From a virus: DNA of 35,309 bases. The position numbers and the translations under genes are program-made. The DNA lies in IMG/VR virus record IMGVR_UViG_3300012920_000006, positions 1 to 35,309 of that record; one strand, written 5' to 3'. Position 1 is the first letter of the stretch; the number at the start of each line of letters is the position of its first letter. This document shows, piece by piece, positions 2,008 to 24,347 of this stretch. The notes beneath the pieces are model-generated. The model was given only the letters and a program-made list of their open reading frames with translations. It did not search any database and was not told the DNA's origin.

Positions 2008-2397
2008 CTATTTATTAAAGCCACAAAGGATGACAACTTGATCAGAGCCAGCGCCCTTTGCATATGCAACTGAAGTGACTTCAGTTCCATTTTGTAAAGC
2101 TTGCAGATCAATTTCAAATCGACCAAACACAGGAACAACGCCATCTGTGTTTGTCTTGCCATCTCCAGCACCAGCGGCCGCCCTCGCTTTGAAAAAGCTC
2201 AGTGTTGATGTTGAAGAGCTTGTCAAGTTTGCATAAGCAAATTGAAGACCATCTGCAAGCTGGGTTCCTGAGATTGGATCATAGAAATCATTGCTTGTAA
2301 GTGAGTGCCAGTCAGTGTCATTGACTGATGATGCATTGTAAGCACCGAAGACTTGACCAGCTGAAATTGGATTTTGTACCCCTTTTTTATTGTTCAT
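2008..2397 (-). CDS. Small virion protein of unknown function
   Basis: It encodes 129 residues. Its ATG at 2397 overlaps the end of the holin-like gene by 11 bp, so the two are probably translationally coupled. The sequence is rich in serine, alanine and glycine, with no cysteine cluster, signal peptide or membrane segment apart from one near-terminal cysteine (VVILCGFNK). Predicted beta-strands such as GRFEIDLQAL and DQVVILCGF suggest a compact structural protein. It sits directly before the tail fibre gene, so a fibre-attachment or tail-tip role is plausible but inferred only from position. I do not recognise the family. Confidence 0.75.
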   Translation of the reverse strand: MNNKKGVQNPISAGQVFGAYNASSVNDTDWHSLTSNDFYDPISGTQLADGLQFAYANLTSSSTSTLSFFKARAAAGAGDGKTNTDGVVPVFGRFEIDLQALQNGTEVTSVAYAKGAGSDQVVILCGFNK

Positions 2398-2599
2398 TTT
2401 TTTCTTCTTCTTTCTTCAAAAGGTTACGTTTCGCCATGACATTTGCGCCAGCGTAGATGAAAAACAATGTATCAATCAGCCCTAAGACTTCAGTGTGTGC
2501 CTTATCGAGTAGCGCAAGAATAAAACAACAAGCAAGTGCAGCATAGAAACCAAGTGCTTTGCGCCCACCCGCTTTTTCAGTCAGTGTTTGTTCACTCAT
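2387..2599 (-). CDS. Holin-like two-TM membrane protein
   Basis: I chose the ATG at 2599 (MSEQTLTEK), which overlaps the endolysin stop in an ATGAGTGA junction and has GGAG nine bases upstream. A longer in-frame extension exists but lies wholly inside the endolysin gene. The 70-residue product has two hydrophobic segments (about residues 16-31 and 39-56) and a charged tail (KKEEEKNEQ). Small size, two membrane spans, charged C-terminus and coupling to the lysin fit a class II holin, which would permeabilise the inner membrane to time lysis. The assignment rests on architecture and position, not on a recognised family. Confidence 0.7.
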   Translation of the reverse strand: MSEQTLTEKAGGRKALGFYAALACCFILALLDKAHTEVLGLIDTLFFIYAGANVMAKRNLLKKEEEKNEQ

Positions 2600-3257
2600 C
2601 GAAGTCATCTCCAAGCAATCTATAAACGTGTGCAAACTCTTCAATCTTGCGCTCTCGTTTAATGACTCCCTCTCCATATTCGCCATCTCCCAAAGTACCA
2701 TGTGCATTGCCTTCAATCGTTGTGATGTAGCCATCTTTCAGCGTCGAGTTGTCAACACATAAAGTGATATGATCACCTTGAAGTGCTCGCTTTGCTGAGT
2801 ACACAACAACAATATCACCTGGCTGAACTTTAGCATGATCAATGCAACGAGAAGTTTTAGACCAATTTTTATAAAGTCTATAGCAACTTGGAAAGATCTT
2901 CTGACGAATTGGGAACTTCACAGCTGTGTGACAAAAAGCAGCAAAAAAACCACACCATGCATATTGTCCGTTTTTGGTGTAATCAGCTTGCCAAGACCAG
3001 CCTGAACCCTCTCGACTTTTGCAATAAGCGTCAACTCTTGAGTCAGGGTCAATGACAACACGCTCCCACTCTGAATGCGCTCTGTCTAAAGCTTGACGAG
3101 TCTGTTCAGAAAGTGCTGGAGTTGGATAATCTGCTTTAAATGCATTTGATTCAAGTTGTTCAAGATCGAGCATTGCTTGATTCAACGCTCTTTGAGTTCT
3201 TCGAATAATATGATTCTGCTCTTCAATCTTTGCTTCAAGATCTGCTTTTGTAGGCAT
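2592..3257 (-). CDS. CHAP-domain endolysin
   Basis: It encodes 221 residues. Residues 1-40 form a charged, probably helical N-terminal segment. Residues about 60-215 resemble a CHAP (NlpC/P60-like) peptidoglycan amidase/endopeptidase: cysteine C102 in AWCGFFAAFCH, histidine H163 in LQGDHITLC and a polar N184 in TIEGNAHG form the expected Cys-His-Asn set. PGDIVVVY before the histidine is a usual CHAP element. No signal peptide is visible, so export would need the adjacent holin-like protein. The ATG overlaps the preceding stop (TAATG) and AAGGAG lies eight bases upstream. It could instead be a virion-associated lysin, since it sits among tail genes. Confidence 0.88.
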   Translation of the reverse strand: MPTKADLEAKIEEQNHIIRRTQRALNQAMLDLEQLESNAFKADYPTPALSEQTRQALDRAHSEWERVVIDPDSRVDAYCKSREGSGWSWQADYTKNGQYAWCGFFAAFCHTAVKFPIRQKIFPSCYRLYKNWSKTSRCIDHAKVQPGDIVVVYSAKRALQGDHITLCVDNSTLKDGYITTIEGNAHGTLGDGEYGEGVIKRERKIEEFAHVYRLLGDDFDE

Positions 3258-18769: not shown

Positions 18770-20077
18770 TGAGTTTATCCTTTCGTTTAAAAGTACCCTG
18801 CCAATTTTATCGTTAGATTGTGCAGGTCTGGGGGTGAGTGTAATTGCTAAAAGTTGAGCGTCTCCGACTTTTGAACCGCCATCTCTTGAGAAGACTTCAC
18901 CGTTCAGAAACTCAGGACTTGACCACAGGACACCGCCAGCGGCCTTGACTACATCAAGGCCACGTTCATTGTATGCTGGTGTTGCGTAAAGGCCATCCTC
19001 ACGAAGTTCAAGGTCAACGATCAATCCAAGAGCGTTGCCACTTTCGGGAGGTGCTGGCGATCCACCTTGAAAAGGTGATGTTGCATGTTGCCAGTCAATG
19101 ATGACAGGGTCACTTTGTCTTCGCTCGTTGAATACTCTGATCATTTCAGACAGTAGCTCATGATCAATTTCTTGACCGATATTTTCACCATTCATTCGTG
19201 AGCTGACTTGACCAAGAGCAAGTGTCTTGAATGGCTTTCCAATGGTCAATCCATCAGGCAAATCATAACTTGGTTCACCTAAATGATTGAGTTGAATTGC
19301 TTCACCATAAGCACGAAGACTTGTCGCTTTTTCATCAGCACGTTTCATTTGATTCACAACTTTCCTTGCAAATGAGAATCCAGCGTCACCGCCCCAGCCA
19401 TTCCAAGCTTGCCAACCTTTGCCTTTGTCACTCCACGTTGAACCCTGCTTATCGACTTCATGGCGTGTGAAATAAGCAAGCATTCTTTTGACTGTGTCAG
19501 GTGACAAGCGCTTTCCGTTTGCCAAGTCTCTTGCTCTTGCAATACCAACGTCAGTCATGCCTCGTTGACTTGGTGGCTTGCTTGCTCTGACTTCAAGCGC
19601 TCGTTTTGCCGCTTCTTGCGCTCCCTTTGGCGGAGTGAAGTCAATGTGACTGTATTTGTCAGGAATCGAAAGCGCTTCAGCTTTGGCTTCAGTTCTTTGC
19701 GGGTGTCCCTTTGGCAACAAGTCAAGATCTGTGTTGTATGCTTTTTTTCTCTCACCTGTGCCAACAAGTTTTAAGAAAGCTTTAACACGAGCAAGCGCCC
19801 ACTGAGTACGATTCATGCCAGGTCTATGACTAACTGAAAAAGCTCCAGCGCCACGCCTAAACACTGCTTTAAGTGTGCCTAGATCAACCTTTTTGCTTTT
19901 AGCTTTGTATCTGTCATTGTGCTTGTCTCTCATGTTTTCGAGTGACTTGACAGCTTGATCACTGATCTTGATTCCACCTCGTGAACCGCTTGCACTTCCC
20001 TTTGGATTCTTTGCGCTTCCTTTAACTTGGTCTTTTTTTGGCGCTGGCGTTTGTGCCTGAGTTCGCTTCTTAGACAT
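18074..20077 (-). CDS. Capsid maturation protease with scaffold domain (Mu I-like)
   Basis: I chose ATG 20077 (MSKKRTQAQT), which has GGAGG seven bases upstream; the stretch to 20131 is only the portal overlap. The 667-residue product has several parts. An N-terminal basic region holds VFRRGAGAFSVSHRPG (DUF5824-like). A second conserved block is HEVDKQGSTWSDKGKGWQAW. A Mu I-type protease core follows (about 315-445), with DPVIIDWQHATSP and ALGLIVDLELREDGLYATP. A coiled-coil, charged scaffold forms the C-terminus (about 455-667). It should cleave scaffold and itself during head assembly. Portal and protease genes overlap by eight bases. Confidence 0.87.
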   Translation of the reverse strand: MSKKRTQAQTPAPKKDQVKGSAKNPKGSASGSRGGIKISDQAVKSLENMRDKHNDRYKAKSKKVDLGTLKAVFRRGAGAFSVSHRPGMNRTQWALARVKAFLKLVGTGERKKAYNTDLDLLPKGHPQRTEAKAEALSIPDKYSHIDFTPPKGAQEAAKRALEVRASKPPSQRGMTDVGIARARDLANGKRLSPDTVKRMLAYFTRHEVDKQGSTWSDKGKGWQAWNGWGGDAGFSFARKVVNQMKRADEKATSLRAYGEAIQLNHLGEPSYDLPDGLTIGKPFKTLALGQVSSRMNGENIGQEIDHELLSEMIRVFNERRQSDPVIIDWQHATSPFQGGSPAPPESGNALGLIVDLELREDGLYATPAYNERGLDVVKAAGGVLWSSPEFLNGEVFSRDGGSKVGDAQLLAITLTPRPAQSNDKIGRVLLNERINSMDNIESLSVEELRQMLVAKDALVKELEQKMKDMMKESESAMVDKKEEAMKEEDEDKKKKMAESKDEDKENKLAHSPDHDEKREVKKSYKMSEQLSESTLLSEVTALRESNAKLSERLEAIEAEKREVEKREAINNLLNEGKITPSEAAVAGKAFELRELQSEFWTMFSERPANSALPLVEVGHGASGQEINKATLDQEVRKLATEKTVSYSEALELFAKSNPDYYNKVFGA

Positions 20078-21488
20078 TGCGCTTCCTCCGCTTGATGAGT
20101 TGTTCAGCAAGTGCTGAAACGCCACCGCCACCGCTTAGGCTTGCAGTCCTTTCAAGTGCTGAGCGCTGAGCGTCTTCAGGTAAATCACCGGCTCCAAGAC
20201 GTTCTCTGATTGCTCGCTCAAGTTCATCATCGGGAGTAAGCAAGCCAGCTTGAACAAGGCCAGGTAACATGCCAAGACTTTCAGCAAGATCATCTGTGTC
20301 AAGTCCTGTGTGTGTCAGCTTTGGTAGTTTGCTTGGATCGACTAGGCCATAGTTCCACCGAATCAAGCGGCCAATTGTGCCGCCGCCACGTCTGTCAACT
20401 CCGCTGACTTGGCTTGCGACAAGATCACAAAGATTGATCGCTGCTCGTCTGAAAACTGACAGATGTATTTCACCAACTGACCTTGCGCCAGTCTCGGTGT
20501 TGCCAAGATCTGCAAACTGAGTCAAAAAAGCCGCTGACATTTGAGAGTCACATTTTGTGATGATCTCAAGCGGCCCGCTTGCATATAAGTTTGGCTGTGC
20601 TGCGTAAGTGTCAAAACTAACAGCATCGTTTTCAACTAGATAGGATTGTTCAGCGCTGATGAAGAGTTGTGCTTGTGCCTCAGCATCATTGACCATTGCA
20701 TCAATGTCTCCATCGGTTAAGCCAAGTGATTCAGCTTGCGAGCGATCAACTTTTACTTTTGGAGTTGGCACAGCCCAGCGATCAAGACCGACACACATTA
20801 AGTTGCTGACTCTTTGCTTTGTTCTCCACCACCACCACACAGGCCGAAGCATACCGACGCCCTCAAAGTTTGACCCCGTTTTATTCAGCGTCAAAAGCAA
20901 AAGCTTATTCGATGGTATTGGCTCAGGTGTATATGTCAACCCAACAACATTCTGAAGAACTCCATCAAGATTTTGATTGTCTCGACTTAGCCACTTTTGG
21001 TGTGCTGATGGCTCTCTGTCTGCATAGTGATCAAGCCAAACTTTGATGTTGCCATTTGCGCAAGGGCCAACTCTATAAACTTCTTCAGCGTATCTATAGC
21101 CAACTGGCACAAACTCGAATAAGTATGCCAGTTGATCTTCCCAGCTTAAAGTCATTTGACCAGCATAACCATCAAAGCCAAATGCTTCATTTGCGTATCT
21201 TGCCAACTCGTCAGCCAATGCATCGTTTTCAATGCCTGGCTCAAAGCGCCATGATGCTGACATTAAAGTTTGACGAAGCATGTGCCAAGAACGTCTGACA
21301 ATTGGATCAGTTCTCAACATTTCCTCAGCTTCTTGAACCCAATTTAACCCAGTTAGTTTTGGATTCTGCTCTTTGCCTGTGATCATTCCACCGCTTAACT
21401 GTGTGCCTGTGATCCCTCTTGTTGTGAATCTGGGTGTTAAGGCTCTCATATGCTTCGGAGAACGCTCTTTTGTTTGATCATAAGACAT
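20070..21488 (-). CDS. Portal protein, DUF935 / Mu gp29-like
   Basis: It encodes 472 residues from ATG 21488 (MSYDQTKERSPKH), preceded by AAGGGG; a longer upstream extension lies in the promoter region and is rejected. Family-like elements are EEMLRTDPIVRRSWHMLRQ (about 53-71), LAYLFEFVPVGYRYAEEVY, SNKLLLLTLNKTGSNFEGVG (about 193-212) and VWWWWRTKQR. These match the stem and clip region pattern of DUF935 portals. It forms the dodecameric DNA entry ring at one capsid vertex. It is separated from terL by the cyclase cassette and a terminator, so a promoter of its own is likely. Confidence 0.87.
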   Translation of the reverse strand: MSYDQTKERSPKHMRALTPRFTTRGITGTQLSGGMITGKEQNPKLTGLNWVQEAEEMLRTDPIVRRSWHMLRQTLMSASWRFEPGIENDALADELARYANEAFGFDGYAGQMTLSWEDQLAYLFEFVPVGYRYAEEVYRVGPCANGNIKVWLDHYADREPSAHQKWLSRDNQNLDGVLQNVVGLTYTPEPIPSNKLLLLTLNKTGSNFEGVGMLRPVWWWWRTKQRVSNLMCVGLDRWAVPTPKVKVDRSQAESLGLTDGDIDAMVNDAEAQAQLFISAEQSYLVENDAVSFDTYAAQPNLYASGPLEIITKCDSQMSAAFLTQFADLGNTETGARSVGEIHLSVFRRAAINLCDLVASQVSGVDRRGGGTIGRLIRWNYGLVDPSKLPKLTHTGLDTDDLAESLGMLPGLVQAGLLTPDDELERAIRERLGAGDLPEDAQRSALERTASLSGGGGVSALAEQLIKRRKRNV

Positions 21489-21522
21489 TAGCACCCCTTT
21501 GAGTTCTATTGTGCTTACAAAC

Positions 21523-21551
21523 AATATAAACACTGAACAACAATTTAGCAA
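21523..21551 (-). promoter_or_regulatory. Putative promoter for the head-tail operon
   Basis: On the minus strand TTGCTA (21551-21546) and TATATT (21528-21523) are separated by 17 bases. It lies downstream of the intrinsic terminator and about 35 bases before the portal ATG, so the structural genes could restart transcription here. A perfect 9-bp inverted repeat, ACTGAACAA/TTGTTCAGT (21532-21540 and 21559-21567), brackets the -35 box and could be an operator. Confidence 0.55.
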
Positions 21552-21593
21552 TAAAAGCTTGTTCAGTATGTTGCAAGTGTTTTCTGTAGATAT

Positions 21594-21626
21594 AAAAAAA
21601 GCCACCGACGGCAATCAGTGGCTTTT
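21594..21626 (-). terminator. Intrinsic terminator after the cyclase cassette
   Basis: On the minus strand GCCACTGA, a six-base loop and TCGGTGGC form an eight-pair stem (one T.G wobble) at 21622-21601, followed directly by seven T. The opposite strand reads stem then TTTTCTG, so it may work weakly in both directions. It separates terL-cyclase-TM transcription from the portal operon. Confidence 0.85.
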
Positions 21627-21684
21627 CTGTCATTCTTGTTCAACATGACAAAAGTTTTTTAAGTCTGTCTTTTGTCTATGTCAA

Positions 21685-22152
21685 TTACTTTTTTGGTATC
21701 CATTCTTCAACAGTTGGATCAAGAATCACTTGATTAACAGACCTTGTTTTAATCGGCTTCTGACCACTGAACATTGAAAGCTTGTCAATGACTGCGCCTT
21801 GCAATTCCATGAGCTGATCAGTCTTCAATTGCATTTGTATTTGTGCATCACGCAATCTTGCAATCAAAGCTTCCCTGTCAGCATTTGCCGAAGCTAGTTT
21901 GTCTTTGAGCTCTTCAACTTCAGACGGATCTCGGCCGCTTGCAATTGCGACCATTGAAGAAATTGAACCTGTGATCACACCAAGAATACCAACAAGAACA
22001 TCACGATTTTCATCAACAATTTTGACATATGTCAGGAACAAGATCAAGCCAACAATCAACAGCAAAAACATGACGCTAAACCACCAGCCTCGTCTTGCTT
22101 TGACATCTTTTGAAAACTCTTTAGCTTCTTGTCTATCTTCGATTGAATTCAT
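21685..22152 (-). CDS. Two-TM coiled-coil membrane protein, cyclase partner
   Basis: It encodes 155 residues. A basic N-terminus is followed by TM1 (about 23-43) and TM2 (about 52-72), then a charged coiled coil (about 76-125) and a short tail ending VEEWIPKK. By the positive-inside rule both ends should be cytoplasmic. The ATG overlaps the cyclase stop (ATGA), so the two are translated as a pair, and a terminator follows. No cyclic-nucleotide-binding, TIR or nuclease motif is visible. Possible roles are a membrane effector or sensor tied to the cyclase, a superinfection-exclusion protein, or a holin-like protein. The pairing is seen; the function is unknown. Confidence 0.8.
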   Translation of the reverse strand: MNSIEDRQEAKEFSKDVKARRGWWFSVMFLLLIVGLILFLTYVKIVDENRDVLVGILGVITGSISSMVAIASGRDPSEVEELKDKLASANADREALIARLRDAQIQMQLKTDQLMELQGAVIDKLSMFSGQKPIKTRSVNQVILDPTVEEWIPKK

Positions 22153-22973
22153 AATACACCTTGTAAAAACATCATGATAAACTCAAGAACGTGATCAATC
22201 CAAAAGAAATAGTCTTGTAGTTCATTCATGCGTCTTGCGTGTGGATCAATCAAAATTGGAACTGTTACTGATGCAGTATAGAACAGCATGATCAAACAGA
22301 AGCGAACATAAAACCATATCAACCACTCTTTTAATTTTCTGTCTCGCATCTTGCTTTTGATCTTCTTTGGCCCAGCAACACGCTTGACTTTGTCACCTCC
22401 AGGCGGTGGCTGCAATGATTCAATTGTTGCGCCAACTGTATAAATCAATTGTGTCTGTTTGACTCCCTTGAACTTGTATTCACCAGCGCAAGCGTATCTT
22501 GTCCCCTTTGGCGTAAAGCTGTTTGTTCTGCCTTTAATTGCTTTCATTGCCTCAGCTGTCAGCAACACTTGACCAGCTTGACAAAGTGACATTGTTCTTG
22601 CTGCTATGTTCTTTGAGATCCCCTCAAGTTCAATACTCTTTGCTCCTGTCATCGTGTATATTTCAGCCTGTTTGACTTCGACAATGACCCCCCAGTGTAT
22701 GCCAATTCGACAGCCAAGCCTTGTTTTTTGTGGAATCGTTTCTTGATAAATCAGCGCAAAGTTTACAGCGTCAATTGGTCGCTGAAAGCTCAGCAAGAAG
22801 CCATCTGATCTATCAATCTCTCGACCGTTGAACTTATAGATCAGCGACCTTGTCAGCCTGTCATGATATTGAAGCCATTGTGCCGCTTTCATTGCGCCTA
22901 CTGACTGAACGAATCTTGTTGAGCCAATTAGATCAAGCAGGACTATTGCAAGCTTTGTTTCGATGAGTTCCAT
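22149..22973 (-). CDS. Class III nucleotide cyclase with C-terminal membrane segment
   Basis: It encodes 274 residues. Residues 1-180 match the class III adenylate/guanylate cyclase domain: LLDLIGSTRF with metal ligand D14, GREIDRSDGFLLSF with second metal ligand D57, a RIGIHWGVIVEV strand (89-100) and EGISKNIAARTM with transition-state N122 and R126. The usual substrate-selecting Asp/Thr position is occupied by E115, so the base used (ATP, GTP, UTP or CTP) cannot be assigned. A basic linker (194-215) precedes a membrane segment (about 217-242) and a second hydrophobic end (255-274). AAGGAG sits seven bases before the ATG, inside the terL end (TGAATG junction), so it is co-translated with terminase. 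Cyclases are rare in phages. Confidence 0.87.
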   Translation of the reverse strand: MELIETKLAIVLLDLIGSTRFVQSVGAMKAAQWLQYHDRLTRSLIYKFNGREIDRSDGFLLSFQRPIDAVNFALIYQETIPQKTRLGCRIGIHWGVIVEVKQAEIYTMTGAKSIELEGISKNIAARTMSLCQAGQVLLTAEAMKAIKGRTNSFTPKGTRYACAGEYKFKGVKQTQLIYTVGATIESLQPPPGGDKVKRVAGPKKIKSKMRDRKLKEWLIWFYVRFCLIMLFYTASVTVPILIDPHARRMNELQDYFFWIDHVLEFIMMFLQGVL

Positions 22974-24347
22974 TCAGAAGCTCCTTGTTTGTGATCCTCC
23001 AACTTTAACATTTCTATTTCTAACAGCAACAGAGCGTCTTGGCTTATACTGTTTATCAAGTGCGCTCTCATGCCAATTGAACATGATGCAATCATATCTT
23101 AAAGCGTCAAGTGGATCTTCACGACCATCTTTTTTTGGCTGCTCTTTGTTGTCCCAAGCATAAGACAAGATTGCTTTTCTTATGCTATTTCCACTTACTC
23201 GCTCGCCTTTGTCCCACACTTCTTTGGTGATTAAGTAGCGCTTTGAATTGAAAGCACGTTTAAGTCTTTGGACTCCGTTCAAGATGTCAACTTTGATAGG
23301 GTCGCTTGTATGACGTAAAGGGACACCAATTCCTTTTGGCGGTTCTTGTCGCATAACTCTGAATGCGCTCTTGCCTGTTTGGTCATTGCGAGCTTTACCA
23401 GCTTTGTCAGCAACGCCAGCATCAAGCCAAATGCGCTTGCCTGGTGCTTGACTCTTCAATGATCGAGGCCACGCAATGGACAAGATTAGCGTTGTTAGTT
23501 GGTCGGTTGTCACCTCTTGCGGATTGATTTCATGACAAATGACAGATGCGTCAAGCTCTTCATCATATGCAATGATCAAGACTGATGGCTTCCTAAATCC
23601 CCAGTCAATAGCAATGCGCCCTGTCATGCTTTCTTTATATTGCCAATTGTCAATGACATGGCTTGCTTCGTTAAACTCTGAATAAATTAAACCTGTTGGT
23701 GGCTTTGGTTTATTCATGATCATCGCTTCTCGTTCGTCAGGAGGCAGCATCTTGGTCGCTTCAAACCATTCATCAGCGAGATTGTCTTGGTTGACATATG
23801 AACTAAAAAGTAAAGGTGTTAAGCCTTGATTCTCTGCCATATTGACCCACCAAGCATCGACGACAGGCAAGCCAACTAAGATCAAGATTGGACTAGGCCC
23901 AGCTCGAAGACGACCAAGTGCTTTATGTGCCACTTCCATTGTTAACGTTTGACATTCATCAATTAAGCATACTCCGCTTGTGACGTTTAAACCCTCAAGC
24001 GGGTTGTGCGTTGCTTCTCTTGTGCCTGGTCGAAAGTAGCTCCGACACCAAACAGTTGAACCATTGTTGTTGTCAGTCCATTGTTTCATAGTGTGGTTAT
24101 ATGTCCAGCCAAGAGGACTAAGCCACTTTTGCATTTCAGGCATCAAGACTGAATTGTATCTTGGTGTTGTGTCAGTGACTAAAAGCGATGAAGTGCCAGG
24201 CCTTGTTTTTGACAAGTAAAGAATGGAGAACACAAGCGCTGATGTCTTGCCTGAACCCCAGCCACAACGGGCCGCAATCACTTTGTCTTTGCGTGTTATG
24301 CCTCTTATGATTTCAAGCTGAAGTGGATTTAGTTTGATTTCAGTCAT
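22974..24347 (-). CDS. terL: Terminase large subunit
   Basis: It encodes 457 residues. The ATPase has Walker A GWGSGKT (residues 29-35) and Walker B VCLIDE (126-131, with D130-E131). The RuvC-like nuclease has D248 in AIDWGFRKPS, D309 in IWLDAG and D411/D414 in REDPLDALRYD. Together these show an intact packaging motor and headful or cutting nuclease. Its ribosome site is weak, but a good promoter lies just upstream. TerL is followed directly by the cyclase rather than by the portal. Confidence 0.95.
   Translation of the reverse strand: MTEIKLNPLQLEIIRGITRKDKVIAARCGWGSGKTSALVFSILYLSKTRPGTSSLLVTDTTPRYNSVLMPEMQKWLSPLGWTYNHTMKQWTDNNNGSTVWCRSYFRPGTREATHNPLEGLNVTSGVCLIDECQTLTMEVAHKALGRLRAGPSPILILVGLPVVDAWWVNMAENQGLTPLLFSSYVNQDNLADEWFEATKMLPPDEREAMIMNKPKPPTGLIYSEFNEASHVIDNWQYKESMTGRIAIDWGFRKPSVLIIAYDEELDASVICHEINPQEVTTDQLTTLILSIAWPRSLKSQAPGKRIWLDAGVADKAGKARNDQTGKSAFRVMRQEPPKGIGVPLRHTSDPIKVDILNGVQRLKRAFNSKRYLITKEVWDKGERVSGNSIRKAILSYAWDNKEQPKKDGREDPLDALRYDCIMFNWHESALDKQYKPRRSVAVRNRNVKVGGSQTRSF

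Follow-up and report, generated by a model that had tools for sequence, protein, structure and literature searches.

Bacteria are known to fight phages with cyclic-nucleotide signals that act through membrane effectors; could phages themselves run such circuits? The question is raised by a locus in IMG/VR virus record IMGVR_UViG_3300012920_000006, whose 35,309 nucleotides are the whole stretch of DNA analysed here (the window). On the minus strand of the window, the terminase gene is followed by a gene for a class III nucleotide cyclase with a C-terminal membrane segment (C, 22149..22973, 274 amino acids (aa); assigned from PF00211, fold, residues and hydropathy), a gene for a small protein in which two membrane segments precede a helical region and a C-terminal tail that is conserved (S, 21685..22152, 155 aa; assigned from hydropathy and alignments), a terminator-like hairpin and the portal gene. 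We find that C and S are strictly paired, neither standing intact alone except at the end of a contig, and that the pair occurs in at least two kinds of uncultured phage. Our preferred reading, held tentatively and at somewhat less than even confidence, is that the two genes constitute an accessory membrane signalling module in which the product of C gates S and which is used in conflict during infection. If this is true, phages themselves run such circuits, in the form of a strictly paired, spreading and strongly selected cyclase–membrane module, and S is a small membrane protein that may answer a nucleotide without any known binding domain.

By its homology domain and catalytic residue set, C belongs to the class III nucleotide cyclases. 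It scores 25.7 bits against PF00211, which passes the gathering cut-off of 21.9, over a cyclase domain of about residues 5–185. Its structure model (mean predicted local distance difference test score (pLDDT) 84) superposes on Rv1900c with a Z of 23.4 and a root-mean-square deviation of 1.9 over 170 residues, and on the cyclase domain of Ma1120 with a Z of 22.5. The initial annotation of the window, made from the sequence alone, had described a cyclase domain with D14, D57, N122 and R126, and these residues are in place. Among the 146 distinct versions of the pair on fetched viral contigs (from 275 near-complete pairs, including that of the window), they are conserved in 145 (with one gap), 146, 145 and 146 sequences, respectively, and K169 is conserved in 138; from class III enzymology, we take D14 and D57 to be the metal-binding aspartates, N122 and R126 the transition-state pair and K169 the phosphate lysine. 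Asp54, Lys112 and Lys121 are invariant in all 146 versions. With this set intact, C looks like a working cyclic-nucleotide enzyme that presumably releases a cyclic product.

Which nucleotide would C use? Adenylate cyclases canonically contact the base through a Lys/Asp pair and guanylate cyclases through a Glu/Cys pair. The equivalent positions in C, which we assume to be D54 and residue 115 (Glu, Asn, Ser and Ala in 131, 11, 3 and 1 of the 146 versions, respectively), appear to match neither pair, so the substrate cannot be named from them. This pattern bears on one alternative, in which C would make cyclic AMP or cyclic GMP as a decoy or for host metabolism, and S would do no more than anchor or protect it. 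The class III fold and full catalytic set would suit such a role, and so would the nearest case in the literature, that of pelagiphages, in which an adenylate cyclase gene is reported to adjoin curli genes (available part of PMC9599517). The base-contact positions argue against it, as does the finding that S is more conserved than C across 14 representatives of the different phage types (50–69% and 37–42% relative to the window, respectively), which would be odd for a mere anchor; we regard this alternative as unlikely.

The C-terminal membrane segment that had been noted on C is seen at residues 225–243 by hydropathy, with a weaker one at 256–274. The test is crude, because the same threshold also marks segments elsewhere: residues 8–26 of the window C (1.41), which are partly strand in the model, and, in 72 of the 146 versions, a stretch N-terminal to residue 195.

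S had been described as a two-transmembrane (two-TM) coiled-coil protein. The two TM-like segments stand, being found by hydropathy in all 146 versions, whereas the helical tail is seen only in a poor model (pLDDT 61). In alignments, the TM segments are followed by the conserved motif ADRxALIxRLRD and, close to the end, by an L...W that is invariant. No accepted family was found for S, for which SLATT_fungal (PF18142) gave 17.6 bits with a cut-off of 26.5; PHROG 9990, to which no function is assigned there, matches all 37 S members searched, weakly. S shares two TM segments with the SLATT two-TM effectors, and 36 of the 37 members match SLATT_fungal at E ≤ 0.05 (best 0.00052). The candidate was set aside, with the score under the cut-off and AbrB matching as many members (37 of 37). 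Outside viruses, S had no match in 72,556 plasmids; there was also none in 398 Pseudomonadota genomes at E ≤ 1e-4, a search that had no positive control and so shows little.

Holins are often two-TM hairpins, and S is a small two-TM protein encoded in a phage terminase operon. S might accordingly be a lysis-timing protein, an accessory holin or antiholin, tuned by C. No holin-named family is among its Pfam and PHROG matches, most of the PHROG matches being without known function, and some related phages lack the pair. Moreover, the endolysin gene (2592-3257; PHROG endolysins, 3.2e-8, with CHAP under the Pfam cut-off) lies about 18 kb off and has a two-TM candidate holin of its own, a 115-aa protein with two TM-like segments whose gene adjoins it (2387..2734, minus strand; hydropathy and neighbour). 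A role in lysis timing is improbable in our view, and S as the holin of the phage was likewise set aside, given no holin family match and an endolysin encoded elsewhere.

Several lines of evidence bear on whether C and S form a unit. First, the genes are tightly packed. The terminase large subunit gene lies directly upstream of C (22974..24347, minus strand; PHROG terminase, 3.2e-9), and its stop directly abuts the C start (TGA-ATG). The C stop and S start overlap as ATGA (22149..22152, minus strand), an overlap of 4 being the commonest arrangement among 58 compared loci. Within 21585..21640 on the minus strand, 3′ of S, a hairpin resembling an intrinsic terminator (−20.6 kcal/mol, z −5.44; not listed in a simple terminator scan) closes the terminase–C–S unit, and a Mu-type portal gene follows directly downstream (20070..21614, minus strand; PF06074, 4.9e-25). 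The overlap, the strong terminator and the position between terminase and portal had all been read correctly in the initial annotation.

Second, we took a sample unselected for the pair, namely the 80 best among 134 relatives when viral contigs were scanned with the terminase. Among the 57 of these loci that hold the whole terminase–portal interval, both genes are present in 44 and neither is intact in 13 (no trace in 11, an S tail in one and a C fragment in one); none has one gene alone.

Third, among 330 viral loci plus the window, 296 have both genes, 18 neither, 16 C only and one S only. Searching with C or S favours loci that have the pair, and many of the loci overlap on the same contigs; they come from four C and S alignment scans (best 80 of 283, 293, 228 and 219), a first C scan (10 of 10 loci) and a divergent-C scan (21 of 21). 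Contig ends account for most of the exceptions: 14 of the 16 C-only loci run out 0–73 bases past C, and the S-only locus has 100 bases of contig before S. The remaining two C-only loci (L043 and L044; compared loci carry L numbers) have a broken C. Looking for the pair in other phages thus yields co-occurrence, the opposite of a pair that never co-occurs, and its conservation in many phages rules out chance.

The pair has also been lost. Its presence and absence on a terminase tree correspond to 5 changes, at least four by starred branches. In L012, whose terminase and portal are 95% and 98% identical to those of the window, the first 26 bases of C remain, followed by a hairpin with a T run and the portal, and the other parts of C and S are gone; L043 keeps a short broken C start and L033 the S tail alone. 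Because these natural deletions destroy both genes, the pair seems dispensable, if the contigs correspond to viable phages, and such deletion phages make the role of the module directly testable.

How far has the pair spread? Small phages have it at the terminase–portal site, and larger contigs (51–162 kb) have it elsewhere. In nine of these large contigs, the window terminase, portal and capsid found no match at E ≤ 0.001 over whole records, which may be fragments; two 36 kb small-phage control contigs match all three. Five large contigs (65–162 kb) have an S that is 64–71% identical to that of the window. Their C is 38–41% identical in four cases and 67% in the fifth, a 96.6 kb contig that carries the genes in reversed order, S–C. 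The divergent-C scan found S at 21 of 21 loci, two of them cut by the contig end. C and S are separated by 1.3–1.6 kb of sequence in L337 and L342–L345, and genes also intervene in L006, an arrangement that suits a diffusible product. Both genes gave zero matches in 50,697 phage records, as did divergent S, and searches for the capsid and helicase loader returned distant matches only. In the phage records, divergent C had one weak match, in an unannotated human gut phage record (MT838110.1 5974-6465; 25.7% identity, E 8e-5). In BFVD, C has nine matches at E ≤ 0.001, mostly giant-virus proteins and one from an uncultured Caudovirales phage.

Both genes are under purifying selection. Ratios of nonsynonymous to synonymous substitution rates (dN/dS) between the window and L001, the one close pair among 10 relatives compared and the only one quoted here, are 0.067 for the catalytic part of C, 0.084 for its membrane part, 0.043 for S, 0.090 for the terminase and 0.085 for the portal; dS is saturated or high in at least one gene for 9 of the 10 relatives, and L031 is an outlier for the terminase (dN 0.592).

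Evolutionary distances of C and S correlate at 0.82, and at 0.70 with the terminase held constant (48 representatives, permutation p 0.001), compared with partial correlations of 0.29 for C–portal and 0.18 for S–portal. This correlation, the strict pairing and frequent gene overlap, the membrane segments in both proteins and the invariant L...W of S, possibly a docking motif, favour a second alternative: S would be a membrane subunit that switches C in response to a cue from the membrane or the infection, and the product of C would reprogramme the host through receptors, as cyclic AMP does through CRP. We consider this possible, and it comes close to our preferred reading, in which the product of C gates S. 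Set against a subunit role are the poor conservation of the C membrane part when S changes less, the genes lying between C and S in some phages and the placing of two S proteins in the trees. The C and S trees each cover 48 of 79 representatives, and the C tree was built quickly, with no bootstrap. A long branch of the C tree splits 15 divergent cyclases (‘type II’) from the rest, and in the S tree the S of L289 and L291, which have a type II C, clusters with that of L238, which has the other C type (support 97/90). A single clade of type-II S is rejected by the approximately unbiased (AU) test (p 0.021), made after the trees had been seen; without L289 and L291, a clade of the remaining type-II S is not rejected (p 0.153). 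The mixed placing hints that S can change its cyclase partner.

Does the pair belong to a described system? Pycsar had been named as the nearest one, with the caveat that the pair is not canonical. The caveat holds. As to proximity, the best curated sequence match of C is to TIGR04510-type bacterial proteins and the best fold matches are Rv1900c and Ma1120. The window C matched 0 PADLOC PycC families at E ≤ 1. Three PycC models find 3, 1 and 1 of 44 C members, respectively, the best E being 0.0033. The PADLOC PycC model also matches in two well-known control genomes, so a hit to it need not be a PycC. Ordinary cyclases can carry a Phe at the second position ahead of their first metal Asp, so this residue is a weak discriminator for PycC, and a cyclic-nucleotide-binding domain is present in PycTM. 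Pycsar comprises two genes, a class III-type cyclase and a partner that is sometimes a membrane protein; in PycC, that Phe is found in EaPycC (F100/D102) and AnPycC (F60/D62), an N-terminal helix is called a hallmark, and a cyclic-nucleotide-binding domain is described for PycTIR (available part of PMC11224242). C and S likewise pair a class III cyclase with a membrane protein, but are phage-borne. The residue two before the first metal Asp of C is Leu in 142 of 146 versions and Phe in 1, the C model begins with the first strand and lacks the N-terminal helix, and S, unlike the Pycsar partners, matches no cyclic-nucleotide-binding domain. PycC structures were absent among the PDB sequence and structure matches listed, which still leaves kinship possible. 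By the tests run (PycC models, Leu for Phe and the N-terminal helix), an identity of C with PycC is not supported.

Panoptes is a second candidate, consisting of the mCpol nucleotide synthase OptS and the 2TM-beta two-TM protein OptE (available parts of PMC12657218 and PMC12657230). It too joins a nucleotide synthase to a two-TM protein, but C is a class III cyclase rather than an mCpol, the pair is phage-carried, and the S model, poor as it is, lacks the beta-barrel of OptE. At E ≤ 0.1, Pfam gives C a single match, PF00211, and no 2TM-beta family is among the matches of S.

The closest relatives by curated match are bacterial. C matches TIGR04510, ‘peptide modification system cyclase’, at 1.8e-41, with 142.5 bits against a cut-off of 400 and over profile positions 7-204 of 814, short of membership. 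A bacterial-genome scan with C found eight Rubrivivax/Rhizobacter loci (31–36% identity, open reading frames (ORFs) of 973–1356 aa), in which S was not found. These STAND-TPR-like proteins and TIGR04510 share with C a D..SDG / GAK..E..G..K type signature and, unlike C, are large and multidomain. The place of Asn122 is taken by Pro in six of the eight loci and Ala in two, and by Pro in each of the three loci read among the four TIGR04510 loci over the cut-off. Since these relatives have replaced the transition-state Asn, the phage C looks the more competent enzyme. The bacterial STAND/TPR-like and TIGR04510 cyclase domains with Pro or Ala at this place (L198–L205, L346, L347 and L349) may bind nucleotides rather than make them.

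No phage pair of this kind was found in the literature searched, which mostly did not extend to subscription journals and bioRxiv preprints, and the available parts of PMC9117128, PMC10580990, PMC11898732 and PMC10746233 contain nothing on one. C and S, which could not be matched to any described system, look like a portable two-gene signalling device.

What might such a device do? The initial annotation had proposed superinfection exclusion, host reprogramming or decoy signalling as possible roles. In our preferred reading, the C-terminal segment of C would tether it to the inner membrane, where it would make a cyclic mononucleotide. S would form the membrane end of the module: its two TM segments would make a hairpin, its helical tail would lie in the cytosol, and it would oligomerise and be turned on or off by the product of C. 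Lying in the terminase operon, the module would most likely act in conflict, against a competing phage; alternatively, it might stand guard over cyclic nucleotides and respond when a rival or the host destroys them, a logic like that of Pycsar or Panoptes in phage ownership. It is possible, if doubtful, that the pair is a new type of phage-owned conflict system, with a membrane-held class III cyclase of unusual base-contact residues and an effector without a known nucleotide-binding fold, exchanged between phage kinds and used against rival phages or to guard nucleotide signalling.

Several points weigh against the gating of S by C in an infection conflict. As the initial annotation had noted of the partner, S lacks a visible cyclic-nucleotide-binding domain: the 19 Pfam families that 37 S members match at E ≤ 0.05 do not include one, which leaves gating without structural support, and the similarity of S to SLATT falls under the cut-off and is no better than its match to AbrB, an unrelated TM family. 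Agreement of C and S distances could arise by linkage alone. A toxin in a late operon would damage its own phage unless held off; a place in the phage's own terminase operon would suit an effector that is kept in check no less well than one that is activated. C itself is not uniform: N122 is Ala in one version, K169 is Gln in eight (L214–L217, L220, L226, L227 and L248), possibly with altered catalysis, and only 124 of the 146 versions have at least one membrane segment past residue 195 at the threshold.

The surroundings of the pair vary among relatives. The terminase–portal interval (window 21615-22976) is an insertion hotspot in L003, L006, L018, L043, L046, L050, L071, L072, L086 and L087. 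Its inserts in different relatives, named by reading the sequences, include several methyltransferase-like kinds and ThyX- and deaminase-like genes, and methyltransferase-like genes, similarly named, lie before C or between C and S in several relatives. Other genes in the virus record include a terminase small subunit-like gene, ThyX, a DnaC-like loader, RecT and a major head protein. Many relatives of the portal align from about residue 39, which suggests that its true start lies about 40 codons inside the ORF 20070..21614.

In the large contigs, a 302-aa gene near the module (L289 11035-11940) had no match in the phage records. A second small protein of 83–93 aa, with hydrophobic stretches and a shared SKKF.AYL.AD.GWK near its start, recurs near the module on reading these contigs (L289 7918-8178, L290 7764-8027, L291 8176-8436, L305 6434-6685, L328 3816-4097 and L342 4561-4839). 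Genes resembling adenylosuccinate synthase/PurZ and adenylosuccinate lyase lie a few kb from the module in the 96.6 kb contig (L314 1597-3757) and in L289 (360-1496); these genes, named by reading, may point to modified purines in the DNA of those large contigs.
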